Shown here one piece after another: positions 32,767 through 60,325 of a DNA stretch of 62,780 nucleotides. The stretch comes from an uncultured Archangium sp. GTDB taxonomy: Bacteria; Myxococcota; Myxococcia; Myxococcales; Myxococcaceae. Both the position numbers and the translations under genes were made by a program. The DNA is taken from contig CAIVGN010000021.1 in NCBI GenBank assembly GCA_903905455.1, forward strand, positions 1-62,780, written 5' to 3'. Position 1 is the first letter of the stretch. The number at the start of each line of letters is the position of its first letter. Below the pieces are notes generated by a model that saw only the letters and a list, made by a program, of their open reading frames with translations, was not told the origin of the DNA and made no database searches.

Positions 32767-32853
32767 GGTTCGAAACGTCGGTTGAGGAATATACAGACAG
32801 ACGTTTTGTATCAGTCGGAGCCCAGCTGGGCAAGCTGCGGTACCGAGCGCGCC

Positions 32854-32883
32854 AATAGCCACCTTCCCATCAAAGTGGCCATT
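32854..32883 (-). terminator. Hairpin after jetD, shared with second operon
   Basis: A 12-bp stem with a 6-nt loop lies 13 nt downstream of the jetD stop. It closely resembles the hairpin after the McrC-like gene (45149-45182): 29 of 36 aligned bases are identical. Its two non-Watson-Crick pairs are A/C on the plus strand and so G-U wobbles in the minus-strand RNA, as expected for an RNA hairpin transcribed from the jet operon. Confidence 0.7.
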
Positions 32884-32895
32884 CGATCCGCCGCG

Positions 32896-38035: not shown

Positions 38036-38040
38036 GGCTG

Positions 38041-43455: not shown

Positions 43456-44304
43456 TCACGTGAGCGCGGCCACCCAAAGCCCGTCGGTGGGCTGCACGTT
43501 GCCGCAGTAGGCGCAGACGAAGGTTCCCGGGCCGGCGTCGCGAAGGGTGCCGTGCTGATGGCAGGAGAGGCAGTACCCGGGGCGAACGTCGGGCGCCGGC
43601 CACTCCCAGATGGTCTTGCCACCCGGCTGCGCGACGAATCGAACACCACCGAAGTTCGCGAGAAGGCGGAGAACATCGAGGCCGGTCAGCGTCAGCACCA
43701 GGGAGTGGTTCAACTCACCGAAGGTCGGCGCAGCCACCTTTGCGAAGTCGGCCGCGACGTCGCCTGCTACCGACACCGAGGCTTGCTGCCATTCGGGGCC
43801 GTTCACGACTCGGAGGCGCCGAGCGCTTTCCTGGTCCAACGCGTACCGCCGCCCCTCAGGTTGGGCAGAAACGAGGATCGTGATCGGATGCGTCTCAAGC
43901 GGAGCCGGCGAGGGATCGGCCGCAGCAACTGCGAGCAGCCCCCTCACCAAGCCATCGAGCTCGCCGGAGACTGCCTCGGCCGGCGTCCGGCCTGGCACGA
44001 ACAGGGCGCGCACTTCATCAATCTCAGCGCTCCCTCGCCGCTCCTTCGACCACGTCTTCCGGAGGGCCTCGAGCACCTCGTTGATCGCGGCCGGTTGGGC
44101 GGTGTCCGGAGCGAGGACATCCAGGTAGCAGAGGATGTCGTTTCCACCTGGAGGCACTTCGACGTGCTGTGCTTCGAGTTCTCCGACGTCGGCGGTTTGC
44201 AGGAGTTCGAACGAGCGAACGGCGGCCTTGGCGTACCTGAAGGAGTTGATGCCGGTCTGGCCTGTCGCCGGCGAGACCACCTTCTGTGCGGTGAGGTAGC
44301 GCAC
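43456..44304 (-). CDS. Unknown protein with C-terminal zinc ribbon
   Basis: This 282-aa protein has no family I recognise. The N-terminal 230 residues look mixed alpha/beta (LCYLDVLAP, ITILVSAQPEGRRY, LVLTLTGLDVLRLL). The C-terminus carries two Cys pairs (C-x2-C in YCLSCHQ and C-x2-C in FVCAYCGN), a zinc ribbon. The GTG start follows the upstream TAG stop with no gap, so it is the third gene of the HEPN operon and translation is probably coupled. The conserved small partners suggest one complex. Confidence 0.75.
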   Translation of the reverse strand: MRYLTAQKVVSPATGQTGINSFRYAKAAVRSFELLQTADVGELEAQHVEVPPGGNDILCYLDVLAPDTAQPAAINEVLEALRKTWSKERRGSAEIDEVRALFVPGRTPAEAVSGELDGLVRGLLAVAAADPSPAPLETHPITILVSAQPEGRRYALDQESARRLRVVNGPEWQQASVSVAGDVAADFAKVAAPTFGELNHSLVLTLTGLDVLRLLANFGGVRFVAQPGGKTIWEWPAPDVRPGYCLSCHQHGTLRDAGPGTFVCAYCGNVQPTDGLWVAALT

Positions 44305-44691
44305 CTAGGCTGCCCTCGGTCGGATGTGCTGGCGGGGAGTGGGGCGGAGATCGCGACCAATTGCGCGGGGGGGAGTGCCTCGAGGCACGCCTGGCAGCGC
44401 GGTGTCGCGATTCGGCTCAGACCTCACCCAAGCGTAGAACGAGTTCGTATCCTCCGGCGTATGGGTGACCAGGGACATCGGCTTGCCGGTGTGCTTCCTG
44501 ACCGCGGTGAAGAGGTCCCAGAGCGTCTCGCGCAGCGCAAGGCAATCGATATTCGCGACGTCGAACACTTCAATCGTCCAGTCGCGCCCGTCGAAGTCTC
44601 CGGCACTCGTCTTCTTGTCGACCCAGCGGGTGGGTCGGTTGCTGGCGAGTCGCCGAACAACCTCGAGAATCGCATCGCGCTCACTGATCAT
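44305..44691 (-). CDS. Unknown small partner of HEPN protein
   Basis: This 128-aa protein is not recognised. Residues 1-95 look folded (ISERDAILEVVRRLASNRP, WTIEVFDVANIDCLALRETLWDLF, MSLVTHTPEDTNSFYAWVR); the last 30 are Arg/Pro-rich and perhaps disordered. It does not show the G-S-x-D-x-D motif of MNT nucleotidyltransferases, the usual HEPN partners. Its ATG lies 11 nt inside the HEPN gene, implying tight coupling. Confidence 0.75.
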   Translation of the reverse strand: MISERDAILEVVRRLASNRPTRWVDKKTSAGDFDGRDWTIEVFDVANIDCLALRETLWDLFTAVRKHTGKPMSLVTHTPEDTNSFYAWVRSEPNRDTALPGVPRGTPPRAIGRDLRPTPRQHIRPRAA

Positions 44692-45188: not shown

Positions 45189-47393
45189 CTACGGGTCGAC
45201 CGCACCACCACGGCCGTTGCCGCAGGACGGGCACACGAACCCGATCTCCGTGCCGACGACCAGGGGCACCGCGAGCACGTCAGCACCCAGCATCCGGTCG
45301 ATCCACCCGGGCTCGCCAGCCATCGTCGTCCAGGCCGTCCCGTGGAGCCGCAGCAAAGGGATCGACCTCGAGCAGCGACCGCAAGCGATCGTCCCCCACG
45401 TCGTCGAGCAGTCCGAGCATGTACAGGAGAAGTGCTGGCCCATCGGCTTGAAGTCTCGCCGCGCGTCTGCGCGGCGATTGCAGGTGGGACACGACAGCAG
45501 GTCGCCGACGACTTTGAGTGCCTGCGCAAGATCCAACTCGAAACGCTGAAGTGCCTTGAGCCGCTTCTCCGCGTCGGTGATGTCCGCGTGTAACTCCTTC
45601 TTTCGCGCGTTGATGTTGCGCGTTCTCTCACCTTCACGAACTGCCTCGCGTCCTTGAAGGGAAACGGCCTCGCGCTCCTTCTTGAGCTGCTCGAGCCGAA
45701 CGCTCGCTTCGCTAACGAGGCGACCGGGATCAAGCGACTCGCTGTCGAGGGGGGGCCGAAGCACCTGCACGGTTTCGCCGGCCACCGCGAGCCAAGTGTA
45801 CTCGCGACTGATTTCCGACAGCTCCGGCCGCGCGATCGTTGGGGGGTACGCGAGGTACGTCGGGGCAGTCGTCACCCAGCGAAGCTGGCGTGTCATTCGC
45901 TCCACGCTGCCGATGTCCCACGGGGACATCGGCAAGAAGCCGACTCCTCGCCGGCCCTCTCTTCCGGCCTCATGGGCAAGCGACCGGAGCCGCACAGCAA
46001 GCTCCGGGGCGAGGTGCTCGAACGCAGCGGCATCGGAAGGTGACGGGTAGAGGATGACCGTCGTCGTGCCAGTGCTCGTGTGCGCATCAGCGTCGGCGAG
46101 CACGCCGCGAAGCTGCTCGTCATCGAGTGCAGCGAGGGAACTACAGAGCGGGACGATGCGCAGCGGCTCGGCGCCCTCCCCATGAAGCGATATGGCACCG
46201 GTCGTCGTGGCCCACGACAAGCGCACGACCCGCGAGCCGTGACGCACCTCGACCTCGCGATCGGAGAGCGACCGCTCCAGGTCGGTCGGCTCGAACCCGA
46301 GCTGGTCGAGCGCCCGTAGCGTCAACAGCAGCACGAAGCTGTCGAACGAGCGACAGAGGTCCTGCATCTCCTCGAAGTACGCGCGCGGCCGGACGGCCTG
46401 CTCCTGGCCGAGCCGAGCCCACTCGAGCCAAAGCTCAGCAACGCTCCGGTAGTGGGCGTCGTCACTGAGGATGTTCGTCATCGTGAGCGTAGTGCCCACC
46501 GTCGCCCGTCGCGGGACCTCTCGGTACAGCACCGAGTCCTTCAGCCCGGAAATCGTGAACAGGAGGTGTCTCAGTTGCCCGAGGGTACGCTCAGCCTTCC
46601 GCTTCGCCTCGCTCGCGTCGAGCGTCTCTCCCCACAGCTTGTAGATGCGCCTCTGACGCCAGTGCGAGCCACCTGCTGCCGCGTCGTGGTTCCCAGTCGC
46701 CTCCCCGAACACACGCAGAAGCCGAGTCACCTCGTGAACGCGCCGGTGCAGGTACACCACGACGTGGTCGACGAGCCGGACCGCGACGCGGTTCTCGTAG
46801 ATGTCGAACTGGTCCTCACTCACTGTGGCAAGGATCCTCTTGGGCACGACGGAGCGCAGAGTCGGCCGTTCCCAGTCCTCCGTGTGCGCGGCGAGGTAGT
46901 TCGCGGCCTGCGCCGGAAACCGCCGGGCACGCGAGACGGCCATCCGCTCGACTTCGACGCGCAGGTGCGTACGCGGCCTCCGGCACACCTCTTCGAGATG
47001 CCCGACGTTCTCCTTGAGCAGTTGCTCGAACCGCTGAAACTCGGCGCGGTTCGACATGCCCGGGACCAACGGCGAGACGTCGAGCACATCGAGCCACGTC
47101 CCGCCCTCAGCGACTACCTCGCCCAAGCTACGCCCGACCGTCCGAATGCTCGCGATGTCCAGCGGGTCAAGCATCTGAGCGCGCGCGAACGTGCCGTCGA
47201 CACGCTCGGCGGCTCGTAGCAGGTGCCAGCGCCCACCCGACTCCGGCACCACGAACATCCCGTCGCACGCCGGGAGCGAGTTCATGAACAGTTCCCCCGG
47301 GGCGCTTTCGCGGACGACGAAGCGGCCCAGTAGCGCAACGCCGCTGCGCGCTTCGCCGATGGCGCCGAGTCGGTCGTGGACTCGAATGCTCAC
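45189..47393 (-). CDS. McrC-like DUF2357 protein with zinc ribbons
   Basis: This 734-aa protein is the probable partner of the McrB-type GTPase. The middle region carries the DUF2357 signature FDIYENRVAVRLVDHVV (about residue 195-210), typical of McrC-like proteins. McrC and DUF2357 proteins usually end in a PD-(D/E)xK nuclease. Here residues 575-630 form a coiled coil and the C-terminus (about 633-734) holds several Cys pairs (CPTC, CTCSDC, CGRC, CPSC), that is, zinc ribbons, with no nuclease motif I can see. The GTG at 47393 overlaps the upstream stop (GTGA), so it is preferred to an ATG at 47483. It is the last gene of the operon. Confidence 0.8.
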   Translation of the reverse strand: MSIRVHDRLGAIGEARSGVALLGRFVVRESAPGELFMNSLPACDGMFVVPESGGRWHLLRAAERVDGTFARAQMLDPLDIASIRTVGRSLGEVVAEGGTWLDVLDVSPLVPGMSNRAEFQRFEQLLKENVGHLEEVCRRPRTHLRVEVERMAVSRARRFPAQAANYLAAHTEDWERPTLRSVVPKRILATVSEDQFDIYENRVAVRLVDHVVVYLHRRVHEVTRLLRVFGEATGNHDAAAGGSHWRQRRIYKLWGETLDASEAKRKAERTLGQLRHLLFTISGLKDSVLYREVPRRATVGTTLTMTNILSDDAHYRSVAELWLEWARLGQEQAVRPRAYFEEMQDLCRSFDSFVLLLTLRALDQLGFEPTDLERSLSDREVEVRHGSRVVRLSWATTTGAISLHGEGAEPLRIVPLCSSLAALDDEQLRGVLADADAHTSTGTTTVILYPSPSDAAAFEHLAPELAVRLRSLAHEAGREGRRGVGFLPMSPWDIGSVERMTRQLRWVTTAPTYLAYPPTIARPELSEISREYTWLAVAGETVQVLRPPLDSESLDPGRLVSEASVRLEQLKKEREAVSLQGREAVREGERTRNINARKKELHADITDAEKRLKALQRFELDLAQALKVVGDLLSCPTCNRRADARRDFKPMGQHFSCTCSDCSTTWGTIACGRCSRSIPLLRLHGTAWTTMAGEPGWIDRMLGADVLAVPLVVGTEIGFVCPSCGNGRGGAVDP

Positions 47394-49858
47394 GCCTCTT
47401 CCTCTGCTCCGAGTCGACGCAGTTCGTCGCGAACGATGGCCGTAGAACGTACCGGGCCCGCCGTCTTGTCCAGCTTCGGCCAAACCTCCGCGATCCGCTC
47501 GTTGAGGGCCGTGAGATCCTCGGGCCGCGTGTCGTGCCGATCGCGAACCTTGCGCAGAAGCTTCGTCGCGAGGATGTGGTCGACCGCTTCACCCACCGTT
47601 CCACCCGCCGCGACGACGACCGGAACGAAGTCGAGCATCTGGCGCTCGAGGCGATTGCCCCAACCCACACCGAAGCGACGCCCGAGGATGTCTGCGAAAG
47701 AGCCGTCAACGAACGAGTAGGCCTCCTTCGCCATGGCCTCGTGAGCCTGCTGCGCCTTGGCGAATGCCATGCGTACGGCGTCGAACGAGACCGGCGCGCG
47801 TGCGGGCAGGCGCTGCGGTTGGAACTGCGCGCGGTGGCGGGGCAACTCCATCACGTGGGCGCGGTCGTAGGTCTTGTCCGCGAAGTCCTTGGTCGTCTCG
47901 TCGTGGTTCGCGGTGCCAACGAACCACACGTTCTGCGGGATCGTCAACGTGCGGCCGTTGCGGAGGTGCGCCGGGGCAGGCTCGACCGCTGCCGTCATGA
48001 GATCGAGCTTTTGGATGCGCGGATCCTGCTCGAGCGCCGAGAGCAGGTCCGCGAAGTACTGCTCGGGATGGGAGAGGTTCATCTCGTCGAGAACGACGAT
48101 GTTGACGAGACCTGAGTAGCGAGGGCACTGCGCGCGGTAGAGCGCCTGCAGGAACTCGGACTCGTAGAACCGCCGCTCGAAGGCGTTGAAGTGCCCGACG
48201 AGGTCCTGGCGATCGCGCCAGCCGGCCTGCACCTCGACGAGGGTGGAGCCCGCGCCGAACGCCCGCGCGACCGCGAGGGGCAGGCTCGTCTTGCCGGTTC
48301 CGCTGATACCTTGCAGCAGGTGGAGTCGGCTCATCGCGAGGCCGCCCAGGAAGCAGCGGATGTCCCGCAGCTCGTAGGACAGCACCTTGTCCGGGTTGGC
48401 CGGATCGATGGCAATGCGGTGTTGGAGGTCCTGGCAGAACACTTTCAGGTCCGAGATCTCATCGGTCACGGGCGTCTGGGTCTGGAGCCCACTGTCGGCG
48501 TCCATCTGGCTGCATGACGGGAACGGGCTCACGCCGTCGGCGCGTCGAATGCGCTCGTTGACGTCCTTGCGCAGCTCCTCGAGCGCCGTGTGCAGGAGGT
48601 CCCGGGCGCTCTCCAGCGCAGCCTTCTGGTCGCGGAGCGTCTCGAGCTCGGTGACGGCGATCGATGCCTTCGCCAGTGCGGTCCTCGCGGCGACGCTTTC
48701 CTGCGTGAGCCGCGCGCGCTCTGCCTCCCACTCCTCCTGCGCGCGCTCGAGCGTGGCGAGTCGCTCCGTGACGTCCTGGTTGGGACGCTTGGCGAGCTGC
48801 GCCTTCAGGGAAGCGCACTCCTTCAGGAGCGCGTCGAGTTCCCTCTTCACCTCCTCGAGCGGGCGATTGCCGAGCGCACGCTCTGCGTCATCGCGCAGAC
48901 GCAGCACCTCGTACAACTCGTCTCGCCCGGCCTGAGCGCTCACCAGGCGGGCTTCGAGATCCCGCTGCTTGGCCTTCGCGGCCTCCAATTCATGGGCGGC
49001 TCGCCGGGCGACGCGCTCGTCGAACGCCTCGCGGTCCTCGCGCAGAACATCTCGCTCGAGTTCCACCTGCGCAGCTCGCTTCTTCAGGTCCGCCCGGTCC
49101 TTCGTGAGCTGCTCGCGTTCAAGCCGAACACGCTCGGCGCCTTCAAGCTCGCTTGCAGCGATCGTCGCTTCGTGGGAGGCGAGTGCCTGCCGTTGCGCGT
49201 CGCGTCTGCGCTCATCCTCGGCGCGGCGCTCGGCTTCCCATACCGCGCGTTCTCTCGCGATCTGCGCCCGCGCCTTGGACAGCTCTTCGCGCAGGGCTGC
49301 GGCCTCATTGTCGAGCTGTTGCAGGGACGTCCTGCGTTCGACTGCGAAGCCCGCCTCCGCGTTCAGCTCCCTGTCTCGGATGACCTTCTCGCGCCCTTGC
49401 ACGTCGAGTTCTCGCGCCTGAAGCCTCGCCTCAGCCTCCTTCACCCCGTCTTGGTCCGCCTTGAGAGTGCGCTCGGAGTCCTCAAGAGTCGTCGCGCGCG
49501 TCTTCAGTCCCTCGTCGCGCGCAAGCAGGTCCTGCTCCAGCGCAGCGAGTTCCGTCTCGCGTTTGGCGAGGCGTGCGTCGCGGGCCCGACACAGTGCCAC
49601 GGTCTCGTCGACCAGCCTGGCCGTCGCGACGACGTCGAGCGTCGATGTCGTGGTCGCCGGAGGCGTGACGAGAGCGATCTCCAAGTCGGCCTCGGTCGCT
49701 GCCGCAATGGCAGACTCGTTGGCGGCCGCGATGGTGGCGAGCGCGGCCTCGGGGGTCTGCGGCGTTGCCGCGATAAGCGGCGGGCCGTGAGTCGTCGACG
49801 AGGAATCCGGCGCCTTGGCCTGCTGGTGCTGCTGGCGGTGCTTGTTCTTCTTGCTCAT
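47390..49858 (-). CDS. McrB-type AAA+ GTPase with coiled coil
   Basis: This 822-aa protein has a low-complexity N-terminus (1-90), a very long coiled coil (about 95-440, Glu/Arg/Ala-rich heptads) and a C-terminal AAA+ domain. That domain has Walker A GISGTGKTS near residue 519, Walker B VVLDEMNLSHPEQY near 590 and the McrB-like sensor GTANHDETTKDF. McrB uses GTP to drive translocation and activates McrC. The coiled coil replaces the usual DNA-recognition N-domain, suggesting an unusual scaffold or target-sensing mode. It starts 5 nt after the stop of the winged-helix gene. Confidence 0.85.
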   Translation of the reverse strand: MSKKNKHRQQHQQAKAPDSSSTTHGPPLIAATPQTPEAALATIAAANESAIAAATEADLEIALVTPPATTTSTLDVVATARLVDETVALCRARDARLAKRETELAALEQDLLARDEGLKTRATTLEDSERTLKADQDGVKEAEARLQARELDVQGREKVIRDRELNAEAGFAVERRTSLQQLDNEAAALREELSKARAQIARERAVWEAERRAEDERRRDAQRQALASHEATIAASELEGAERVRLEREQLTKDRADLKKRAAQVELERDVLREDREAFDERVARRAAHELEAAKAKQRDLEARLVSAQAGRDELYEVLRLRDDAERALGNRPLEEVKRELDALLKECASLKAQLAKRPNQDVTERLATLERAQEEWEAERARLTQESVAARTALAKASIAVTELETLRDQKAALESARDLLHTALEELRKDVNERIRRADGVSPFPSCSQMDADSGLQTQTPVTDEISDLKVFCQDLQHRIAIDPANPDKVLSYELRDIRCFLGGLAMSRLHLLQGISGTGKTSLPLAVARAFGAGSTLVEVQAGWRDRQDLVGHFNAFERRFYESEFLQALYRAQCPRYSGLVNIVVLDEMNLSHPEQYFADLLSALEQDPRIQKLDLMTAAVEPAPAHLRNGRTLTIPQNVWFVGTANHDETTKDFADKTYDRAHVMELPRHRAQFQPQRLPARAPVSFDAVRMAFAKAQQAHEAMAKEAYSFVDGSFADILGRRFGVGWGNRLERQMLDFVPVVVAAGGTVGEAVDHILATKLLRKVRDRHDTRPEDLTALNERIAEVWPKLDKTAGPVRSTAIVRDELRRLGAEEEA

Positions 49859-49863
49859 GGCTG

Positions 49864-51453
49864 TCAGGTCCTCGTGGAGTCGAACGGCTGGCCGAGGCCG
49901 GAGAGCAGGCCCACAGCGCGATGAACGTCGGCGATGACTGGCAGCACCGACTGGAGGGACGGTCGCTCGGCGCCCGCGTGAACCGCACCGCCGGCCCTCG
50001 TGGCGACGTTGTCGAGCACTTCGAGGAGCCCCGGCTCCTGGGAGGCCGCGCGACGTAGGGGATGCGCGCGGTCGTCACGCGCCGCGAGCACGGCGGCGAC
50101 GATTGCGCCACGCAGCCGCCAACCGCCGTCCGGGTAGCAGGCAGCCTTCACATGGTTTGGCTTCACGCGTGCCAGCGCCTCGGGTAGCGGCACACGGAAA
50201 CCCACGGCCTTCGCCGAAGCCTCGTAGACCCCTTGGCAGTACGCCTCGTCCTCAACAGGCCGTCGATCGGTGTAGACGCGGCGCCAGACGAAGCGCGGAG
50301 GGTGACGGTCGAATATCGCCTTGAACGTGCCCTCCAATGCGCGGCGTGCGGCACCGAGGAGGTCGCGCAGCTTGTGCTCAGGGCATGACTCGCCGAGCAA
50401 CCCGGCCTCGACATGCGCGTACTCGAGCGCGACGAGGTCCTCGTACTGAGGCAGATCGCGGGCGCTGACGGACAGCGCCATCTCGACGTTGTTGATAGCC
50501 ATCGCCCGAACCTCGCCCGCCCAGCGCTGCTGCTCCTGGATCTGCTCGTCGAGCGAGCGGCCGATCATGCTCTCAAGGACGGAGTGGAGCCCCGACGACG
50601 ACCGCATCTCGCGCTCGAGCGCACGTCGCAGCGTCGGGCTGACCCCGAGGCCGAAGGGGTCACACGCATGCCACTCGCCGCCGACGTCACCCGCCTCGGA
50701 CAGATAGATGAAGGTGGTGACGAAGACGGGGGTGGGTCGATCGTCGACGAGCGAGACGCGTTCCAGAACGACGCTGCCGGCGTGAGCGAGCGTGTCGTCC
50801 TCATCGGCGCTCTCGTACGACTCCGAGCGTCGAAGCGCGGAGCGATGTCGACGGGTCACACGGACGATCTCGGATGCGCCAGGTGCGGGAGGAAGCGCGA
50901 GGTCGCCGGGCAGCACCATGAACGCTCGCTCTCGGCGCGGCTTTCCTTTGGACCCGAGCACGAGGTCGGGGAACCCGCCGTTCGGGTTCTGCTGCAACTC
51001 GACGTAGTCGAGCTTCTCGACGAAACGCGGCCAGAGGTCGCCGGTCCACGGGTCCTGGAACACGTGCCCCGTCACCATCCGACTCGCATCGAGCGTCTCC
51101 TCCTCGAAGAGTTCGCGCCCCTTTTCGGTCGGAAGCCCATTGCTGCCAAGCAGCCGACGCTCCTGCAGTTCGATGTAGATGAGCGCCGCGAGGTCCGCAT
51201 GGATGTGGAGCCGCTCGCCGATGCGCTGGACGTTCGTGGTCCCAGCACGGCACATCCCCAGCACCGCCTTCTGGAGCACGTTGAGCTCGCGATCTCGCAC
51301 CTCTGGGGCCACGACGCGGTACATCAGCGCGGGCCACAAGACGAAGCGGCGCTTGCCCGGGCTCCACCGCATCCGTTGGTTCGTGCTCGGGTCCTTGGGT
51401 AGCCGCGGCCCGAAGTGGAGGACCGGCGCTTCACGCCTGAAGAGCAATGCCAT
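49864..51453 (-). CDS. Winged-helix protein of defence operon
   Basis: This 529-aa protein is not assigned to a family. Residues 60-125 look like a winged HTH (VLQKAVLGMCRAGTTNVQRIGERL, then LQERRLLGSNGLPTEKGREL). The rest is mixed alpha/beta with a Lys/Arg-rich patch after 180. No catalytic motif is visible. The ATG at 51453 has a strong GGAGG site and lies 23 nt inside the helicase gene, so it is co-transcribed. It may give DNA or nucleoprotein recognition to the helicase/McrBC module. Confidence 0.75.
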   Translation of the reverse strand: MALLFRREAPVLHFGPRLPKDPSTNQRMRWSPGKRRFVLWPALMYRVVAPEVRDRELNVLQKAVLGMCRAGTTNVQRIGERLHIHADLAALIYIELQERRLLGSNGLPTEKGRELFEEETLDASRMVTGHVFQDPWTGDLWPRFVEKLDYVELQQNPNGGFPDLVLGSKGKPRRERAFMVLPGDLALPPAPGASEIVRVTRRHRSALRRSESYESADEDDTLAHAGSVVLERVSLVDDRPTPVFVTTFIYLSEAGDVGGEWHACDPFGLGVSPTLRRALEREMRSSSGLHSVLESMIGRSLDEQIQEQQRWAGEVRAMAINNVEMALSVSARDLPQYEDLVALEYAHVEAGLLGESCPEHKLRDLLGAARRALEGTFKAIFDRHPPRFVWRRVYTDRRPVEDEAYCQGVYEASAKAVGFRVPLPEALARVKPNHVKAACYPDGGWRLRGAIVAAVLAARDDRAHPLRRAASQEPGLLEVLDNVATRAGGAVHAGAERPSLQSVLPVIADVHRAVGLLSGLGQPFDSTRT

Positions 51454-54400
51454 GCTTCCCTCCACAGAGTTCGCGGAAGCCCACGAGGCCACGCAGGGCC
51501 TTCTCCGACGCTTCGCCCCTCAGCATCGCCGCGTCGCCGACCACGATGAGCAGGCGCTGCTGCCGGCTCATGGCGACGCACAGGCGGTTCTCGAGCATCA
51601 GGTGTCCCAGCTTGCGTCGAAGGGATCGCTCGTCCGACGCGGGCAGGTCGTTCGACCTCGTCATCGACAAGAACACGACGTCGAACTCTTTGCCCTGGAA
51701 AGCATCGACAGTGCCCACCCGCAACCGCTCAATGAGTCGCCCGTCCTCGCTGCGCGTCTCGCGCCAAGCGTCCTTCACGCGGTAGGAGCCGTCGTCGAGC
51801 CGCTCGGACAACCCGCGCTTCTCCATCGCGCGCAGGACCTCGTCTACCTGCGCGGAGTAGAAGGAGATGACGCCGAAGCTGAGATCACGGCGCGCTGTCG
51901 CCAGGCTCTCGACCTCCTTCGCGATCCACTCGGCCTCGACAGCCCGGCGCTTGCTTTGGCCGCCATGCTCACGGCCACGTGAAAGGGGCATGTCGACCCA
52001 CGCGGCGACGCGCCCGGCGTAGCCCGGAAGGTCGTGAACGAACTCCTCGGAGCGCCGCGGCGACTCGAAGCCTTCGCCGTAGGGCGCGTAGAACGTGTCG
52101 CTGACGAACGAGCCCAGCACGGGGTGCATCCGGTACTGCTTGTCGAGCGTGACGGTGCGCTTGATGCCGTCCTTCGCCTCGCGCTCCTTCATCGCCTGAA
52201 ACAAACGCTCGAAGAGGCTCCGGCGTAGCGCAGTCGTGGTCGCCTCGGAGACGGACTGTTCAAGCTGGCTCTCGATGTCGGGCTCGAGGATGTGCGGTAG
52301 CTGTCGGTGGTCTCCAACCAGGATGATGCGCCGCTCGGCCCGCGACATCGGGATGAACAGATCGAGCGGGTTCGCGCGTGCTGCCTCGTCGACGATCACA
52401 TTGGCGAATACGGTGTCCTGGCCCTTCGCCAAGCTCATCTGGAAGCCAACCGACTGCTGGCAGGTGGCCGCGAGCACGACGGTGTAACTCCGAACCGCGT
52501 CGCGAACGGCGTCGATGTCGTTCTCGAGGTCGTTGAGGTACTCGTAGAGCACCGCGTCCTCGCCTCCGGCCGACTCGCGCGCCTTGCAGTACAGCGCGTC
52601 CACGATCTCGGGTAGGAGACTCTCGAGGTCGCCGTGGACCATCGGGGCTCCCACGGGCTTCTCGGCCGCAAGGAAATCGATCAGCACATCCTGCAGCGCC
52701 TTCAGCTCGGCCAAGAACGGGGGCGGGTCGTCGCTGGCCCATCCCGCTGCGTCGCTCAAGACGCGGTGCTTGGTCTCTTCGTACAACCCCATGCGCTGAA
52801 GGCGAAGGAGCGCGCGCCCTGCGTTCCGAGGGCCGTCGTCGCCGAACGCGACGGCGTCTGTGCGAAGCCCCCGAACTGCCTTGAGGGCAAGTGCTCGATC
52901 GTCATCCTCGGGGTCACCGAGCTGCGCGGGGGAGCGCGAGATCTCCTGGCGAAGCACGTCAAGTCGATCTTTGAGCGCCGGCGGGACGTAGCTGCGGCAA
53001 AGCTCCTGAACTTCACACACGACACGAAGCGACTCGTCGACGGTGAGCGGTGACGCGACGTAGGCGGCGGCAAGCGAGCGGACCTTGCGGAGCACCTCGG
53101 TCACGGGGCGTTCGGGGAGCGTCGACAGGTCCGCGCGCACGGCGTCGGCTCTATCCCGTCGCCATCGATCGAACCCGTCGCTCTGGTCGGTGGTCCCGCG
53201 CTTGCGCCCGACCTTGATCGCCGGGAGTCCGAATACGAGGGTTTTCGATGCCGCGTTCTCGACCGCGTCGTGCTGGTAGCTCGTGAGCAAGGTTTGACCA
53301 GCGAGATCGTCCTCCGACAGCTCAGCGAGGCGGGCCTCGAGCGCAGCGATCGTCTTCGTCTTGCCGGTACCCGGCGGGCCCTGAATCAAGGCGATGTCGG
53401 GCGTGTTGAGCGCCACGCGCAGCGCCTCGACCTGCCTCGCCGTGGGCTCCCCGCCGAACACTTCGCGCGCAGCGACCGAGAGCGCGTCCTCAGTTTTCCT
53501 GCGCCGCTCGGGAACAGCGCTGCCCTCGAGCAGGAGGCCGAGCTGAGGCATAGGGCACTCGGCCGACGCGATGAGCGACTGCGCATGCTCGCGGCGTTCG
53601 AGCCGCTTGCGGTCGCCGCTCACGCTCAGGAACAGCACGCCGCTTTCGGGCGGCTCGCGGTCGTCGCTGTCGATGGGAGGCTGCAGGTCGATCGCGCGAC
53701 GCTGGGGCTCGGCACCCGAGAACGCACCGACAAAGATCCGCGACCGCTCCGGGTGAGCGGCAGCCCCATCAGTCGGCGTCGCGGCGTCGTCGGTCGCCTG
53801 CTGCAACTCGCGAGGCGGGTGCAGGGCAGCTTCGAGATCGACGTCCTCCGCGTTGCGCAGCACCTCGAGGGCGGCATCGAGCTGCTTCGTGTCCTCGATG
53901 TAGAAGCGCCACCGCCCGTCTCCCTGAAGCTGCCGCTTGTTGTAGCGGAGCCAACCCAGGGTTCGCGCGCGGCGCAGCACGCTCTCGCGCTCGAGCTTGT
54001 TGTACTCCTTCCAAATGTTGAGGTAACTGCCCGCCCGCTCGACGAGCTGGTCGAGTTCGGTTCGCGCGGTGCCGCGAAATGCGCCAGCGATGGTCGCATC
54101 GCAGAACCGGACACGCCCGAGCACGAGGACTACCGGACGGCGCTCGTCTGGCGCTGTGCCGCGCTTCGCTTCCACGACCCGAGTAGCGATGAGCTTGTCG
54201 TCGCGCCCCTTCGCCACATCGACCGCGTACCCACGGCCATGAAGGCGAAACGCGCCGCGCTGGTCGGTCGCCGGTGTCGGGCTGCCCGAGAGGAACACCC
54301 TGGAGCCGCCGTCCGCCGCTTGCAGGAGGAAGCGATCGCTCAGCCACTGCGTAGCCTCGCCGGCCGAGACGCTGCGACCGAGCTTCTGCCGCACCTGCTC

Positions 54401-54760
54401 GACCAGTTTGTCGTCGACGCCGATGTCGACCTGATCGGGCCAGTCGTACCGAGAGGGGAACTCGTGGACCTGGAGAAGGACCGCTTTGCTGTTCTTCCCC
54501 TTCGGACGAACGGAAGCGACCCACGCGACGCGCGGGAGGTTCCGATCGCGGACGCGTTGGAGCGCTTCAGACGCGCGCCTGTCAGCGCCAACGACGCTCC
54601 ACGCGCTGGGCCCGATGCGCAGCAACGACTCGCCGGTGACATCGGAAAACTGCAGCGCCGCCTCCGCGCGAGGCTCGGCGGCGAGGCCGAAGTCGGCCGC
54701 CGCGCTCGGCAGGACCTCGATCGTCGAGACATCTCCAGAGGCCAGGTCGTTGATGTTCAT
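51431..54760 (-). CDS. Upf1-like SF1 helicase
   Basis: This 1109-aa protein ends in a superfamily 1 helicase of the Upf1/DNA2 type. Motif I GPPGTGKTKT is near residue 460, motif II VIVDEAARANP near 788, motif III LVGDHRQLPH near 815, QYRMHP near 873 and the late GTVDAFQGKEFDVV and VAMSRQQRLL. A 160-residue insertion separates motifs I and II. The first 430 residues are an unrecognised regulatory or nucleic-acid-binding region. Its start overlaps the kinase stop (ATGA). It probably moves on DNA or RNA for the defence complex. Confidence 0.88.
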   Translation of the reverse strand: MNINDLASGDVSTIEVLPSAAADFGLAAEPRAEAALQFSDVTGESLLRIGPSAWSVVGADRRASEALQRVRDRNLPRVAWVASVRPKGKNSKAVLLQVHEFPSRYDWPDQVDIGVDDKLVEQVRQKLGRSVSAGEATQWLSDRFLLQAADGGSRVFLSGSPTPATDQRGAFRLHGRGYAVDVAKGRDDKLIATRVVEAKRGTAPDERRPVVLVLGRVRFCDATIAGAFRGTARTELDQLVERAGSYLNIWKEYNKLERESVLRRARTLGWLRYNKRQLQGDGRWRFYIEDTKQLDAALEVLRNAEDVDLEAALHPPRELQQATDDAATPTDGAAAHPERSRIFVGAFSGAEPQRRAIDLQPPIDSDDREPPESGVLFLSVSGDRKRLERREHAQSLIASAECPMPQLGLLLEGSAVPERRRKTEDALSVAAREVFGGEPTARQVEALRVALNTPDIALIQGPPGTGKTKTIAALEARLAELSEDDLAGQTLLTSYQHDAVENAASKTLVFGLPAIKVGRKRGTTDQSDGFDRWRRDRADAVRADLSTLPERPVTEVLRKVRSLAAAYVASPLTVDESLRVVCEVQELCRSYVPPALKDRLDVLRQEISRSPAQLGDPEDDDRALALKAVRGLRTDAVAFGDDGPRNAGRALLRLQRMGLYEETKHRVLSDAAGWASDDPPPFLAELKALQDVLIDFLAAEKPVGAPMVHGDLESLLPEIVDALYCKARESAGGEDAVLYEYLNDLENDIDAVRDAVRSYTVVLAATCQQSVGFQMSLAKGQDTVFANVIVDEAARANPLDLFIPMSRAERRIILVGDHRQLPHILEPDIESQLEQSVSEATTTALRRSLFERLFQAMKEREAKDGIKRTVTLDKQYRMHPVLGSFVSDTFYAPYGEGFESPRRSEEFVHDLPGYAGRVAAWVDMPLSRGREHGGQSKRRAVEAEWIAKEVESLATARRDLSFGVISFYSAQVDEVLRAMEKRGLSERLDDGSYRVKDAWRETRSEDGRLIERLRVGTVDAFQGKEFDVVFLSMTRSNDLPASDERSLRRKLGHLMLENRLCVAMSRQQRLLIVVGDAAMLRGEASEKALRGLVGFRELCGGKHGIALQA

Positions 54761-56157
54761 CGGGCTCCTCCCGGCCGAAGTTCAAAGTTCACGACGCGGT
54801 GCAGGCTGTCGGGAGAGCCGAGGTGGAGGCGCCACGAGGCTGCGCCGGGCTCGAGACGGATCTCCTTCACGCGGTCGGCCACTTCGGCGTCTCGACCGCC
54901 GCTCGGAGACGAAAGCCGGTAGCGGGCGCCGTCGACGCTGCGGAGCGAGAGCCTCGATCCGGTGAGCTGAAGCTCGATCACAGGGCGTGCACTAGCGGCG
55001 CCGTCGCGGCCATGCGCAAGGCGCTGCGTGACCGACACCGTCTCGCCGTCGGTCAGGCCGAGCACGGCAGCGACCACCACGCGTCGCCGCTCACCAGCAG
55101 GCTTCTGGAGAAGCTCACCGCCCGGACCGAGCGAAGGGTCCCACAGGTTGAAGGCCGCTGTCGCGAAGGCGGGCCGGGGCTCGTCACACCAAGGGCAGAG
55201 CTTCTCCGTGAAGTAGTAGGTCCCCTTGCACGACGGGCACGACAGCGTGGCGTCGGCGGCGCCGTGAAGACACTCGGCCCACTCGGACACGCCAGGGCGC
55301 TTGGTCGCCTCGCGCAGCCCCGCGCCGAAGGCTCCCTCGGCGAGGTCGACGAGCTTTCGCGACAACACGGACGGCCGGGGAATGCCGTAAGACGCGCGGT
55401 TGGTATCATCGGTCGGGTGGTCGATCCATGGCAGGCGTCCGTCGAGCGCCTCCTCCTCGCGATCGGGAGGCCCATCACTGACCGCGTCGCCGATCAGCGG
55501 GTGGGCGAGTGAGAGCGTCTGAAATGCGAGGACGCTGAAGGCGTGCGCGTCCGTGAGCGAGTTGACGCCGCTGGCGCACCGCACGAGTTCCGGCGCGCCG
55601 TAGCCCGGCGTGAAGACGGCGGGCACGCCTGCGACCGACGCGTAGTGGATGTTGTCCGCGTCGATGAAGCGCACCTCGGTCGCGTCGGGGCTTTCAGAGA
55701 CGAAGATGTTGTGGGGTGACGGGTCGGAGTAGACAAGCCCCTTGCCGTGAAGGGCGGCGAGCACGTCGGCGCTGCGCGCAAGGAGCTGAAGACGGCGACG
55801 AAGGCCGCCGCCCGCGAGGTACCAGGCAGCTGGTGAGGCCGCGTCCTTGGGGACCGCGCCCAGCGCCTTCAGCGGCTGCATCCCCGTCAGCAGCTCCATC
55901 ACGTAGCCGAGGACTGGTTCGCGGAGCATCTCGAGCGGCCGCGCGATCTCGAGGTCGGCGAGCGAGAGGCGCTTCACCTGCGTGAGCTGGTTGCGCAGGC
56001 GCTCGCGTCGTGACGGCGACGAGTCGAAGACGACCTTTGCGGCGAGCCGCCCGCCGTCGACCTCGTAGACCGCCCCCTGGCCACCTCGACCCAACTGCCG
56101 AAGCAGGGAGTAACGAACGCCGTTGATGTCCGTGACCTGTCGAGGAGCCGAAGTCAT
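54757..56157 (-). CDS. Protein kinase with zinc ribbon (TerY-P type)
   Basis: This 466-aa Ser/Thr-kinase-like protein has a Gly-rich loop GRGGQGAVY (residues 23-31), the ATP Lys in AAKV and a catalytic loop VYSDPSPHNIF, where Asp and Asn are kept but the usual His is Tyr. The metal-binding Asp sits in FIDADN (for DFG). A zinc ribbon follows (C-x2-C...C-x2-C, about 306-324), then a beta-rich tail. This kinase, the PP2C phosphatase and the vWA protein next to it form the TerY-P triad known from stress and defence neighbourhoods. Start overlaps the PP2C stop (ATGA). Confidence 0.85.
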   Translation of the reverse strand: MTSAPRQVTDINGVRYSLLRQLGRGGQGAVYEVDGGRLAAKVVFDSSPSRRERLRNQLTQVKRLSLADLEIARPLEMLREPVLGYVMELLTGMQPLKALGAVPKDAASPAAWYLAGGGLRRRLQLLARSADVLAALHGKGLVYSDPSPHNIFVSESPDATEVRFIDADNIHYASVAGVPAVFTPGYGAPELVRCASGVNSLTDAHAFSVLAFQTLSLAHPLIGDAVSDGPPDREEEALDGRLPWIDHPTDDTNRASYGIPRPSVLSRKLVDLAEGAFGAGLREATKRPGVSEWAECLHGAADATLSCPSCKGTYYFTEKLCPWCDEPRPAFATAAFNLWDPSLGPGGELLQKPAGERRRVVVAAVLGLTDGETVSVTQRLAHGRDGAASARPVIELQLTGSRLSLRSVDGARYRLSSPSGGRDAEVADRVKEIRLEPGAASWRLHLGSPDSLHRVVNFELRPGGAR

Positions 56158-56909
56158 GCGAGCACCGCCTCTCGCTGCGCGAGCACGACGAGGGTCTTGT
56201 CATCTGTGTGGTGCGGGGTCGGCCAGTCCTTCAGCTCTCGCTGCAGCGCCCGCCACCGCTGGGTGGGCGCCATCCCCGCGAAGTCGTCCATCAACCACTG
56301 CACGAACCCGTCGATGCGCTCAGGAAGGAGATCGTCCGCGACGCCGTCGGTCGCGAGCAGGACGACCGCTCCTCCCTCGCGCGGGAAGGTTCGGCTCGTC
56401 CACGACGCGGAATGGCCGAGAGCGTCCGTCTCGTTGGCGAAGCCTGCTGCGCGCGGGCCCACGACCCACTCCAGCCCACGCTGCGTTCGGAGCATCGCGA
56501 GGCCATCGCCGATCGCCGCGACATGGACCTGCCCGCGGACGTGCGCGAGCGCAAACAGACACGTCGCAGCGCAGTCTCGCGCTCTCGACGGAGCGATAAG
56601 CGAACACCAGCGCGGCTCGATGCCGCCAAGGAGTTCGTCCAGGGTGCACGCGCCCGCCTTGTGCCATGCGCGCACTGCATCGAGCACCGCCCGGCAGGCC
56701 ATCTGCGCGCCTCTGCGGGCGTCGCTCCGAGAGCCCATTCCGTCGCTGACGACGACCAACGTCCCGAACGCTCCACGAACTCCGAGCCAACTGTCCTCGT
56801 TGGGCTCGCCTTGGGCGCGGTGGCGCGGTCCGACCGCGCTGGCGCCAAAGTAGTCGTCGGGTGAGCGTTTCGACACGAGGTCCTCGGCGCGATCAGAACT
56901 TGAAGTCAT
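56154..56909 (-). CDS. PP2C-type protein phosphatase
   Basis: This 251-aa phosphatase has all the metal-binding motifs of the PP2C family: NEDSW, VVSDGMGS, AATCLFALAHV, AAIGDGLAML, LLATDGVADDL and DDKTLVVL. It would reverse the action of the neighbouring kinase on a shared target. It overlaps the vWA gene by 17 nt and the kinase gene by 4 nt, so the three are made together. Confidence 0.92.
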   Translation of the reverse strand: MTSSSDRAEDLVSKRSPDDYFGASAVGPRHRAQGEPNEDSWLGVRGAFGTLVVVSDGMGSRSDARRGAQMACRAVLDAVRAWHKAGACTLDELLGGIEPRWCSLIAPSRARDCAATCLFALAHVRGQVHVAAIGDGLAMLRTQRGLEWVVGPRAAGFANETDALGHSASWTSRTFPREGGAVVLLATDGVADDLLPERIDGFVQWLMDDFAGMAPTQRWRALQRELKDWPTPHHTDDKTLVVLAQREAVLA

Positions 56910-57690
56910 CGAGGTCGGTCGGCTCCGCAGCGATCACGCTGTCAGGATTCGCGCTACGCGAGCGTTGCGTGACGCTCATCGTCACCCACCGGAAGAACTG
57001 TTTGATCTGGCGCGCCTCGTGGGCGCGGTAGACGCGCGCCTCGGCCGTCGCGAGGAACGCGGTGAGCATGCCCTCGTCGGCGTCGTCGCCGATTCCCATC
57101 GCGAAGCGGGCTGCCTTCGAGGCGCGCTCGGCGCCGAGTAGGCGCTTCAGCGGAGCCTGCCAATCGTCGGTCGGCTGGCCATCGGAGACGAGAATGATCG
57201 TTGGGCAGTAGGCGCGGCTCGGGATCTGCGCTCGGTCCTCGATCATCCCCGTCGCCGCGTCGAACGCAGCACCCATCGGCGTGCCGCCGGCAGCGGTCAT
57301 CCGGGACCACTGGACCTTGGAGGCCGGGGCGAGCGGCTGGTGAACCTTCGCGCCCTCCTTGCCGAACGTGACGACTGCGACGTGGATCTCGGCGCGGCTG
57401 TCATCCTCCCCGCCGAAGCTCTCCAGCATCTCCTGCACCGCGTCGTTGAGCGCATCGATCTTGCCGTTGGTGCTCATGCTCCCGCTCACGTCAGCGAGCA
57501 GAAGCACCGGAAGCGGCCTTGCGGTGGAAGCGGTGAACTCCTTCAGTTTGCTCATGACTCTCTCTCCAATCGTTTTTGGCGCGGTCTTCGGCTGCTCTCT
57601 GCGTTCCGCGACCTTCTTGATCTCTGCCTGGACGCGCGAGGTTCCGTTGTGGCGACTGACGATGTCTTCGAGGTACTTGGCCCAGCCCAT
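56893..57690 (-). CDS. TerY-like vWA domain protein
   Basis: This 265-aa von Willebrand factor A protein has an intact MIDAS: DVSGSMS near residue 65, TPMGAAFD and a later SDGQPTDDW. It resembles TerY. The ATG at 57690 is preferred, with GAGG upstream; a GTG at 57699 is possible. Another in-frame ATG at 57564 has a strong GGAGAGAG site and would match the short TerY start (MSKLKEF), so two forms are conceivable. In TerY-P triads the vWA protein is thought to scaffold kinase and phosphatase. Confidence 0.88.
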   Translation of the reverse strand: MGWAKYLEDIVSRHNGTSRVQAEIKKVAERREQPKTAPKTIGERVMSKLKEFTASTARPLPVLLLADVSGSMSTNGKIDALNDAVQEMLESFGGEDDSRAEIHVAVVTFGKEGAKVHQPLAPASKVQWSRMTAAGGTPMGAAFDAATGMIEDRAQIPSRAYCPTIILVSDGQPTDDWQAPLKRLLGAERASKAARFAMGIGDDADEGMLTAFLATAEARVYRAHEARQIKQFFRWVTMSVTQRSRSANPDSVIAAEPTDLDDFKF

Positions 57691-57700
57691 GGCAGTCACC

Positions 57701-58027
57701 TCATCGCCAGGAACTGCGGCGACGGCGCTCGCGCAGGCCCCTGAAGTTGCTGTTGCGGTACACCGTCAGGATCGCGCTGCCATCCGTGACTACCACCTGC
57801 GTGCCCTCGAAGTCGGAGAGCTCGATCCCCTCGCGGCGGAACCTCTCCACCTCCCTGCGACCGATCGCGAAGATCTGCGCGCCGCGAATCTCGGCGCAGC
57901 GCCCGAACTCGAGAGCCGCTTCGAGGGCCGTTCGCGAGATCGCCCGTGTTGCCATGCGCGCGAGCGCGTGCTTCGTGAGGGAAAAGCTGCCCAGGGTCGG
58001 CGGCAGCGCAGCGAGGGCAGTCGACAT
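57701..58027 (-). CDS. DUF4258-like small protein
   Basis: This 108-aa protein is the first gene of the operon, starting 43 nt after the predicted transcription start. An AAAGGAG ribosome site precedes the ATG at 58027; the in-frame codon at 58078 lies in the promoter region and cannot be the start. The HALARMATRAIS helix followed by beta strands (AQIFAIG, TQVVVTDGSAILTVYR) resembles DUF4258, a RelE-like small fold seen in toxins and toxin-like proteins. The fit is suggestive only. It could be an RNase effector or an autoregulator. Confidence 0.65.
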   Translation of the reverse strand: MSTALAALPPTLGSFSLTKHALARMATRAISRTALEAALEFGRCAEIRGAQIFAIGRREVERFRREGIELSDFEGTQVVVTDGSAILTVYRNSNFRGLRERRRRSSWR

Positions 58028-58078
58028 CGAGCGGCTCCTTTCGGTTGATGCCGCGGGATGCGGCGACCGAAGGGCCAC

Positions 58079-58096
58079 AAAGCGAAGGCCGTGCCA
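58079..58096 (-). promoter_or_regulatory. Sigma-54 (-24/-12) promoter
   Basis: On the minus strand the sequence TGGCACG-GCCT-TCGCTTT matches the sigma-54 consensus TGGCACG-N4-TTGCW with one change (TT to TC before the -12 GC). The GG and GC elements are correctly spaced. It lies between the sigma-54 activator gene and the first gene of the large operon, with a predicted start of transcription near 58070. Confidence 0.85.
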
Positions 58097-58126
58097 GGCT
58101 GAGCGATAGGATTTCCGGGAGTGCCG

Positions 58127-59644
58127 TCATCGCTGCACTCCGTAGCGCTGAACCCAATTCGTGAGGGTCTGGTAGCTCGGCAGGCCGACAAGGTCCGCGG
58201 CCTTGGTCTTGTTTCCGGCGGCTTCGTCCAGCGCGCGCTCGAGGTAGTGCCTCGCTACTTCACTCAGTAGTTCTGGGAGGTTGAGGCCGCCTCCGAGTGG
58301 CCGTCCGAGCACGTCGTGGCGCCGAGCGCCCGGCACCGGGAGGAGTGCCTCGCGTGCGTCTTCGGCGGAGATCGTGTTCGACTCGGTCCAGATGGCAGCG
58401 CGCCGGAGCGTGTTCAGCAACTCGCGGACGTTGCCAGGCCACGGGTGAGCAAGGAGAAGATTCCTTGCGCCGGCAGAAAGATTCTTGTCCTTGAACCCGG
58501 GGTCGCCGGCGGACTCCCGGTTCACCTGTTCGAGCAGTCGATCGACGAGCAAGCCGACGTCGCCCGAGCGCTCGCGCAGCGGAGGAATCTTCAGGACCGC
58601 AACCGCGAGCCGGTAGAAGAGGTCCTCCCGGAACCGGCCCGCGGCGACCTCGTCGGCGAGGTTGCGGTTGGTGGCCGCGACCACGCGCACGTCGACCTTC
58701 TCCGGTGTTCGGGTCCCGAGCTTGGTGACGGCTCCTTCCTGCAGCGCACGAAGGAGCTTCACCTGCGCGGGCGCGGGGAGCTCGCCGAGCTCGTCGAGGA
58801 ACAAGACCCCGCCATCGGCTACTTTGAAGAAGCCCTCCCGCGCATCGGTCCCGGTGGCGACACCCTTCGCAATGCCAAAGAGCTCGGACTCGATCAGCTG
58901 CTCCGGAATCGCACCGCAGTTGACCGCGACGAACGGCTTTCCACGACGGGGGCTCGCCTGATGGATCGCCCGCGCGAGCAGCTCCTTGCCGGTGCCGGAC
59001 TCTCCCTCGATCAACACCGGCACGTTCCGGATGGCCACTCGGCGTGAGCGCTGAACCAGACGAGCCATCACGCGGCTACGGTGGATGATGTCCGCGAACT
59101 CAGGCGTCGCCGGTGGCTCGGCGGCGCTCTGCTCCCGGAGCCGCTCGTCTTGCTCACGCAAGAGGTCTGGTAGGAACTCCGCCGCGATGTCGAACGGGAT
59201 CTCGGCGGTCTTCACTCCTTGCTCGCGCGAGGACTCGATCAGCTCGGCCGGGAAGAGCGTCTTGCCCAGGAGCATCCAGACCGCCGCCATGGGAGGAGCG
59301 CCTGAACTCAGGTGGAAGGACAGCGAGGTGCCGCCCGCGCCAGTCGGCTCGATCGCGCTCCTGCACGCGCGACGTGCGGCTTCGTAGATCCCGCCGAAGT
59401 CCGTCGGCCCACGCAGCGCTTCTGGGCGTTCCACCACCTCGGCGGTCGTTCGTGCGCGAAGCCACGCGACGTAGCCAGGCAGCATCTCCTGGTGCGCGGG
59501 TTTTCCGAAGTACTCGAGCAGGACGATCTGATCGAAGGGGCGCACGGCAAGAGCTTGGGCGATCGGCCCGAGGTCGCCGGTGGCCTCCTTTCCGGGCCCG
59601 TTCAGGTCCGAGACCCCGACCCATGCAAGGAGGACGCGTCGCAC
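58127..59644 (-). CDS. Sigma-54 activator with CARF-like sensor
   Basis: This 505-aa activator is of the RtcR-like class. Residues 1-175 look like a CARF (Rossmann-type nucleotide-binding) domain: VLLAWVGVSDL, FDQIVLLEYFG and the diagnostic-looking FHLSSGAPPMAAVWMLLGKT. The AAA+ sigma-54-interaction domain has Walker A GESGTGKE near residue 213, Walker B LFLDELGE and GNVRELLN. Its C-terminus has a Fis-type HTH (NKTKAADLVGL..TLTNWV). The sigma-54-contacting loop GAFTGA is changed to GVATGT. The GTG at 59644 starts the first strand; a TTG upstream is possible. It probably controls the operon that follows. Confidence 0.85.
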   Translation of the reverse strand: MRRVLLAWVGVSDLNGPGKEATGDLGPIAQALAVRPFDQIVLLEYFGKPAHQEMLPGYVAWLRARTTAEVVERPEALRGPTDFGGIYEAARRACRSAIEPTGAGGTSLSFHLSSGAPPMAAVWMLLGKTLFPAELIESSREQGVKTAEIPFDIAAEFLPDLLREQDERLREQSAAEPPATPEFADIIHRSRVMARLVQRSRRVAIRNVPVLIEGESGTGKELLARAIHQASPRRGKPFVAVNCGAIPEQLIESELFGIAKGVATGTDAREGFFKVADGGVLFLDELGELPAPAQVKLLRALQEGAVTKLGTRTPEKVDVRVVAATNRNLADEVAAGRFREDLFYRLAVAVLKIPPLRERSGDVGLLVDRLLEQVNRESAGDPGFKDKNLSAGARNLLLAHPWPGNVRELLNTLRRAAIWTESNTISAEDAREALLPVPGARRHDVLGRPLGGGLNLPELLSEVARHYLERALDEAAGNKTKAADLVGLPSYQTLTNWVQRYGVQR

Positions 59645-59655
59645 GGGAAGAAAGT

Positions 59656-59689
59656 ACAAGAAAGCTTGCGGTGATACGATCGTTCTTGT
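59656..59689. promoter_or_regulatory. Inverted repeat before activator gene
   Basis: The 7-bp arms ACAAGAA and TTCTTGT are separated by 20 bp, with ACGATCGT-type palindromic bases near the right arm. It overlaps the region where the activator transcript should begin and may be an operator for autoregulation. Its distance from the chosen start (11 nt) is short, so it could also shape the leader. Confidence 0.4.
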
Positions 59690-59773
59690 GCTCAACGACG
59701 CCACGGGCTCCTTCAGGCGAGCGCGCCGCTCGCTGGTGAGCATGCACACGACTTCAAGCACCGCCCCGCCCGG

Positions 59774-60325
59774 CTACCGCTTCTTGGGGCCCGGCGTTGG
59801 GACGGCGGCCCGTTCCTTCCATTGGCGGACCAGCCTCTCGGGGGCATCCATCATCGCCGCGAGACGACTGTCCTGGTCGTCTCGCCGTCCAACATGCTCG
59901 CTGCGCCAGGAGGCCTGAACGGCCACCTGCATCTCGGCCGCCACGGCCTTCTTCAGCGCAGCGACGGTCGGTTCGGACTTCCCGTGACGAGCTTTGAAGA
60001 CGCGGGGGAAGACCTTCTTCTCGATGGCCTCTGACATGTCGAACGCCGTGTCGCCCTCAGGAATCGAGACCGTCAGGGAAGCGCCCTCAAGGAGACCCTC
60101 AACATCTTCGACGTTCACATCCGAGTCGCCCTTCGGACCACGGCTCTCCACGAGGCTCGCCTTGGCTGCAAGAGCGAACTCAAGGAACAGCGGACCGCTG
60201 TAGACGCTCCATGTGCAGCCCTCGGGGTTGGCGACCTCATCGAGGCGGTCGACGAGTTCGTCCTCCGATTGCGCCTTCACCAGTGCCGCCGTCAGGTCTG
60301 GCCACCGAACGAGATAGAGAGGCAT
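59774..60325 (-). CDS. Hypothetical protein before activator
   Basis: This 183-aa soluble protein is not recognised. It begins with YLVRWPDLTAALVKAQSEDELVDRLDEVANPEGC, reads as mixed alpha/beta and ends in a basic tail (GPKKR). It lies on the same strand between the amidoligase operon and the sigma-54 activator, with about 50 bp to the upstream gene; to which unit it belongs is unclear. The ATG at 60325 is preferred over GTG at 60334. Confidence 0.65.
   Translation of the reverse strand: MPLYLVRWPDLTAALVKAQSEDELVDRLDEVANPEGCTWSVYSGPLFLEFALAAKASLVESRGPKGDSDVNVEDVEGLLEGASLTVSIPEGDTAFDMSEAIEKKVFPRVFKARHGKSEPTVAALKKAVAAEMQVAVQASWRSEHVGRRDDQDSRLAAMMDAPERLVRQWKERAAVPTPGPKKR

Follow-up and report, generated by a model that had tools for sequence, protein, structure and literature searches.

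A sigma-54 promoter located between an activator gene and a CoCoNuT-like defence operon is, with good probability, functional and part of a self-contained induction cassette, as judged from the position and conservation of its elements. The DNA analyzed is a stretch of 62,780 nucleotides from an uncultured Archangium sp. (contig CAIVGN010000021.1), referred to hereafter as the window. With somewhat less assurance, the arrangement would represent a portable module, widespread and horizontally transferable, in which a single gene codes for the sensor-activator, contains an enhancer in its coding sequence and bears a sigma-54 promoter at its end.

The activator gene and the putative promoter behind it

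The activator gene is located on the minus strand (58127..59644), with a GTG start at 59644 deduced from homologues in an open frame that extends to 59761. PADLOC, Pfam and our alignment A1 together assign to its product a CARF domain, an AAA+ domain of the sigma-54-interacting type and a Fis-type HTH. The protein is covered almost entirely by the PADLOC RtcR_PspF2 profile (PDLC01995; E 3e-184, profile positions 2-480 of 481), and Pfam reports matches with Sigma54_activat and HTH_8 and no hit for the N-terminal domain. It is not an RtcR proper: the RtcR model gives a much weaker and partial match (E 3e-52), and the neighbouring genes are those of a CoCoNuT, with no rtcBA. A search for a sigma-70 promoter at 59600-59900 returned none. 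The genome contains a single rpoN gene.

The -24/-12 element downstream of this gene (58081..58096, minus strand) reads TGGCACG-GCCT-TCGCT, the -24 box covering 58096-58090 and the -12 box 58085-58081 on either side of the GCCT spacer. It matches 11 of the 12 bases of the consensus TGGCACG-N4-TTGCW; the sole mismatch is a T to C change in position 2 of the -12 box, common to the closest relatives (TCGC in L003/L033, L032 and L037), and the GG of the -24 box and the GC of the -12 box are intact. The element lies 30 nt past the activator stop codon, which ends at 58127, and 54 nt ahead of the first operon ATG at 58027, and transcription is predicted to start at about 58070. The ribosome binding site of the first operon gene, AAAGGAG (58035..58041, minus strand), is found 7 nt before the ATG. 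A previous sequence-only reading of the window had noted a sigma-54 motif one base off the consensus, a 99-bp gap between activator and operon and the AAAGGAG ahead of the first gene, all of which are borne out; it had placed the motif at 58079-58096, with the right sequence but a start coordinate two bases too far, 58081 being the correct one.

Within the 62.8-kb window, no other site reaches 11/12 (at most one mismatch), and the element ranks at the top of all sites. In the 8.6-Mb genome, the somewhat looser pattern TGGCACG-N4-TYGCW has three occurrences and is no commoner than its reversed control; since the two frequencies are equal, the motif taken alone is weak proof and the case rests on its position and its conservation.

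Conservation of the promoter among homologous loci

Homologous loci were gathered from the phylum and from 84,980 species genomes using the CARF alignment A1, and the promoter was counted in 75 unique full-length loci as a score of at least 10/12 within -40 to +60 of the activator stop. The element is present at this place in 60 of the 75, and in 33 of them it begins at offset 0, directly after the stop codon, many loci displaying the stop fused to the -24 box as TGA-TGGCACG. Among the controls, 11 of the 1527 remaining gene ends of these loci had it, as did 65 of 7500 shuffles and none of 17 genes of generic sigma-54 activators (enhancer-binding proteins). The offset varies from -19 to +35, within or beyond the coding frame, and the sequence is kept nonetheless. 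The whole-genome frequency of the pattern, close to that of its reversed control, would suit a chance match to a short consensus; yet controls at equivalent positions reach 0.7-0.9%, far below the count in the homologous loci, and the conservation holds at pairwise activator protein identities of mostly 46-71%. A chance match is therefore rejected, its probability being next to nil. After clustering at 70% identity, the promoter remains in 25 of 35 representatives.

By their record titles, the promoter-positive loci span about ten phyla, including Myxococcota, Pseudomonadota, Desulfobacterota, Planctomycetota, Acidobacteriota, Gemmatimonadota, Spirochaetota and Chloroflexota, although single assignments may err since many of these loci are metagenome bins. 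The genes behind the activator differ from locus to locus: CoCoNuT genes in the closest relatives of the window, and elsewhere defence cargo that mostly consists of type I restriction enzymes (about 34 of 54 first downstream genes), with methyltransferases or others in the remaining loci. In annotated plasmid loci, the activator is followed by CoCoNuT or type I R-M genes. The cassette is also present in culturable relatives, for instance at loci on the Azotobacter chroococcum plasmid pAcX50d (L138) and on a Rhodoferax antarcticus plasmid (L136).

These data also bear on whether the operon might be expressed constitutively, by read-through of activator transcripts or under a sigma-70 promoter, the sigma-54 site contributing little. 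The operon follows the activator gene in the same orientation, and a search of the minus-strand interval separating them revealed no terminator-like site, as read-through would have it. However, no sigma-70-like promoter was found at 57950-58250, and the sigma-54 element is kept in about ten phyla, at the exact place and before unrelated cargo, which makes this explanation highly improbable.

In about ten loci, TTGA replaces TTGC at the -12 position directly after the activator stop (L039, L041-L044, L046, L048, L051, L007 and L010), a change that may signal lower promoter strength or a different tuning. In 15 of the 75 loci the stop-codon promoter is lacking, and nine of the 15 retain reasonably well the intragenic element described below.

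A candidate enhancer within the activator gene

A codon-level scan, with the genes' own codon usage as a baseline, locates the strongest synonymous-codon constraint of the activator gene in one nine-codon stretch about 350 bp before the stop. In its extreme columns, arginine is written as AGA 35 times (3 expected), alanine as GCA 68 times (12 expected), serine as TCT 48 times (8 expected) and leucine as CTT 44 times (9 expected). The stretch reads AA[A/C]TTTCTGC-N4-GCAAGAAAT-CTT, and in well-diverged promoter-bearing pairs, out of 329 comparable columns, the three with the highest codon conservation fall within it; it is absent from the same place in generic enhancer-binding proteins. In the window, it corresponds to a candidate enhancer (UAS; 58456..58487, minus strand; CAAGAATCTTTCTGCCGGCGCAAGGAATCTTC), formed by a tandem of two dyads 20 bp apart and related to CAAG-N4-CTTG, the left dyad being weak. 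The element precedes the -24 box by about 346 bp, and its centre lies about 400 bp upstream of the predicted transcription start, farther than is usual for an enhancer.

The pattern specific to this element is unique in the 8.6-Mb genome, and across 195 genomes of the phylum it occurs in only six, each time at its position in a close RtcR_PspF2 homologue. When the same genome is scanned with the tandem dyad instead, the intragenic site shows 3 mismatches, a level shared with three chance-like sites. Two other signals were discarded: a CCAG-N11-CTGG dyad near the gene end, found first, proved to be a by-product of the conserved YQTLxNW codons, and a seemingly significant covariation of half-sites between upstream and intragenic sites vanished after GC correction.

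Such a constraint might also operate at the level of RNA or translation, through an mRNA structure or a rare-codon pause, rather than as a DNA-binding site. The preferred codons AGA, TCT, CTT and GCA are indeed rare in these genes, but the stretch maintains the 20-bp spacing of its dyads, and the same dyad is encountered in non-coding DNA, both ahead of the activator gene and in an intergenic stretch of locus L139, so that an action through RNA is very unlikely. Locus L139, the CoCoNuT of the Polaromonas plasmid pPNAP01, has a drifted intragenic site and a perfect GCAAGATAACTTGC between activator and operon, ahead of a weaker -24/-12 element, as if the candidate enhancer had shifted out of the coding sequence. 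The CoCoNuT gene order of this locus is that of the window, and its candidate enhancer dyad and weak promoter are both intergenic (L139:10521-10733).

The association of the intragenic element with the promoter was also followed in loci from plasmids, viruses and Gammaproteobacteria, taken as an independent set, in which the stop promoter is present in 10 of 10 loci with the element and in 0 of 7 without it, two of these seven sharing one sequence. In the main set, loci devoid of the element likewise tend to be devoid of the promoter (p 0.003). This concordance may be partly due to subfamily ancestry.

The upstream tandem dyad and divergent promoters

A second tandem operator, CAAG-N4-ATCG-N8-CAAG-N4-CTTG (59657..59688, minus strand), ends 12 bp before the activator start and, with 2 mismatches, is the best tandem match in the 8.6-Mb genome. 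At least one copy of CAAG-N4-CTTG is found upstream of the activator start in 42 of the 75 loci, against 2% expected, with a spacing of 20-21 bp; the dyad is unrecognisable there in most of the independent set. This upstream site is probably an autoregulatory site of the activator. In 28 of the 75 loci, a divergent sigma-54 promoter also lies upstream of the activator (about 2% expected; only two hits on the other strand), and in 14 of these 28 the centre of the tandem dyad is 82-87 bp from the divergent -24 box, which is the classical position of an enhancer. A search for such a divergent promoter in the window itself found none. Since the dyads occupy this position in many relatives, the CAAG-N4-CTTG dyads are probably the enhancer sites of the activator; they are conserved near promoters and rare elsewhere in the genome, as expected of candidate enhancers.

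Some loci display further genes at the divergent promoter. A family of ~561 residues without significant Pfam or PADLOC match is its recurrent product (L041:3521-5203, L039:8216-9892, L045:8230-9927 on the minus strand, and others) and is a candidate for a new defence or signalling component. Proteins with an ARPP-1 domain are located behind it in some loci (L079:8760-9758 and L105:8832-9788 on the minus strand).

The quality of the upstream dyad raises another explanation, in which the sigma-54 promoter exists and is active but does not use the intragenic element as its enhancer: the activator would act from the upstream dyad, at ~1.6 kb, or from solution, and the intragenic element would do something else, for instance shut off transcription of the activator gene as a form of autoregulation. 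In favour of this, the upstream dyad matches better than the intragenic one, relatives have it at the usual enhancer distance from their divergent sigma-54 promoters, and in some loci the intragenic element is retained although the stop has no promoter. Against this stand the co-occurrence of element and stop promoter in the independent loci, the loci L014 and L097, which keep the upstream dyad and have neither the intragenic element nor the stop promoter, and L139, with its dyad directly upstream of its promoter instead. This alternative is thus rather unlikely, and the intragenic copy would rather serve as the enhancer of the stop-codon promoter. The promoter kept in 60 of the 75 loci and the candidate activator-binding sites support the proposal of the sequence-only reading that expression is regulated and sigma-54-dependent, under the adjacent activator.

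The CoCoNuT-like operon and its neighbourhood

The operon covers 12.8 kb on the minus strand, from 58027 to 45189, codirectional with the activator gene, and is likely expressed as a single transcript since most neighbouring genes overlap. Its first gene (57701..58027, minus strand) encodes a DUF4258/BrnT-like protein, with a Pfam hit just under the cut-off (PF14076, E 2.7e-5) and 40% identity over 86 residues to the DUF4258 gene that occupies this position in L139. The TerY-P triad follows, all on the minus strand: a TerY-like VWA protein (56893..57699; Pfam and PADLOC), whose ORF opens with a GTG and probably starts at the ATG at 57690, a PP2C phosphatase (56154..56909; Pfam and PADLOC), and a protein kinase with C-terminal zinc-ribbon cysteines (54757..56157). 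Downstream, the CnuH-like SF1 helicase (51431..54760, minus strand) returns Pfam AAA_11/AAA_12 and PADLOC MkoA (E 3e-90). The CnuE-like protein (49864..51492, minus strand), a putative wHTH and HEPN effector, is identified by its similarity to the gene at the same place in locus L136 (24% identity, E 2e-22) and by a weak MkoB hit; from sequence alone, it shares with L136 an R-x5-H motif, whereas an R-x4-H motif is not shared. The CnuB-like coiled-coil McrB GTPase (47390..49858, minus strand) possesses the NxD motif as TANHDE, also present in the L136 homologue, with which its N-terminal part aligns; its coiled coil was judged by eye. Lastly, the CnuC-like McrC homologue of DUF2357 type (45189..47483, minus strand) is assigned through an L136 protein annotated as DUF2357, with which it shares 32% identity, its own Pfam hit being not significant (E 0.31). 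The operon displays hallmarks of CoCoNuT type II or III-A, namely an McrB-like GTPase with NxD and a long coiled coil, a CnuH SF1 helicase and a TerY-P triad with an STK-zinc ribbon; the subtype is defined by a CnuE with one HEPN domain (II) or two (III-A).

Small uncharacterised genes follow CnuC (43456-44691, minus strand; one weak BrxE match, E 4.5e-4) and may extend the operon. An IS-type transposase with an rve integrase core (41976-43244, minus strand) separates the CoCoNuT-like operon from Wadjet JetA, JetC and JetD and an AbiEii gene, located downstream on the same strand (31223-39483, minus strand). With these Wadjet and AbiEii genes downstream of the operon, the region is a defence island.

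Proposed mechanism and relation to known systems

The CARF domain of the activator would sense an infection or RNA-damage signal, the trigger being probably, by analogy with RtcR, an RNA or nucleotide ligand. Activator dimers would then bind the intragenic tandem dyad at 58456-58487, where the AAA+ ring would assemble, and the DNA would loop over about 346 bp so that the ring opens the sigma-54 polymerase waiting at 58096-58081. One transcript of mostly overlapping genes would yield the BrnT-like protein, the TerY-P triad and CnuH/E/B/C, while the upstream dyad at 59657-59688 would probably let the activator control its own gene. Since the likely landing site of the activator lies within its own coding sequence, the gene appears to carry a complete portable induction module, and the packing of sensor, enhancer and promoter in one gene and a few bases would let it fit before different defence cargo.

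Escherichia coli RtcR has the same CARF-AAA+-HTH architecture of a sigma-54 activator, and the rtcBA promoter, TGGCACG-ACGG-TTGCA, matches the consensus at 12 of 12 bases. However, rtcR and rtcBA are transcribed in opposite directions from a common intergenic region that holds the promoter, and the cargo is RNA repair, whereas in the window the operon is read in the same direction as the activator gene, the promoter comes shortly after the activator stop, the candidate enhancer is inside the activator gene, and the cargo is a defence operon. PspF/pspA and the classical promoters of enhancer-binding proteins likewise combine an enhancer dyad with a -24/-12 promoter, and PspF/pspA-type systems are autoregulated through sites near the activator's own start. 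The classical enhancer sites, those of PspF/pspA and others, lie between genes, some 80-150 bp from the start, in contrast to the candidate enhancer of the window, about 400 bp away and in coding sequence.

Regulated expression had been regarded by the sequence-only reading as uncommon for a McrBC-type system, which does not hold in this branch. Bell et al. (2024; PMC11090510) reported RtcR homologues and BrnT-like genes before many CoCoNuTs, in the order found here (RtcR homologue, BrnT-like, TerY-P triad, CnuH, CnuE, CnuB with NxD, CnuC), and hypothesised an RtcR-type control; an upstream activating sequence is a mere possibility there, and sigma-54 promoters are not analyzed in the text. 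Nor is such control new beside restriction systems, where Makarova et al. (2014; PMC4012209) described CARF-NtrC-type proteins and predicted them to be sigma-54 activators of downstream genes. In the portions of that paper devoted to them, these proteins belong to the same family (PADLOC RtcR_PspF2) and have a predicted role in activation upon a phage-related ligand, and a promoter, an enhancer or an autoregulatory site is not described. A search of mainly open-access literature found no published description of a sensor-intragenic enhancer-promoter architecture and, on sigma-54 control of phage defence, nothing closer than these CARF and CoCoNuT papers. As CARF-sigma-54 control was already predicted, what appears new is the architecture, with sensor, enhancer and promoter in one gene and its stop codon before varied defence cargo.

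Studies of bacterial defence have mostly dealt with effectors, and how the systems are switched on is poorly known. The signature proposed here, a stop-codon promoter with CAAG-N4-CTTG dyads, predicts which restriction, CoCoNuT and other operons would be under CARF-sigma-54 control, names the exact bases to mutate, and makes the proposed sensing of RNA fragments by CARF domains testable. If the portable-module reading is true, any downstream defence cargo would come under infection- or RNA-damage-induced control. For a DNA enhancer to persist within the reading frame that encodes its own activator, across wide evolutionary distances, would already be uncommon; it would also account for how the control unit could travel in one piece.
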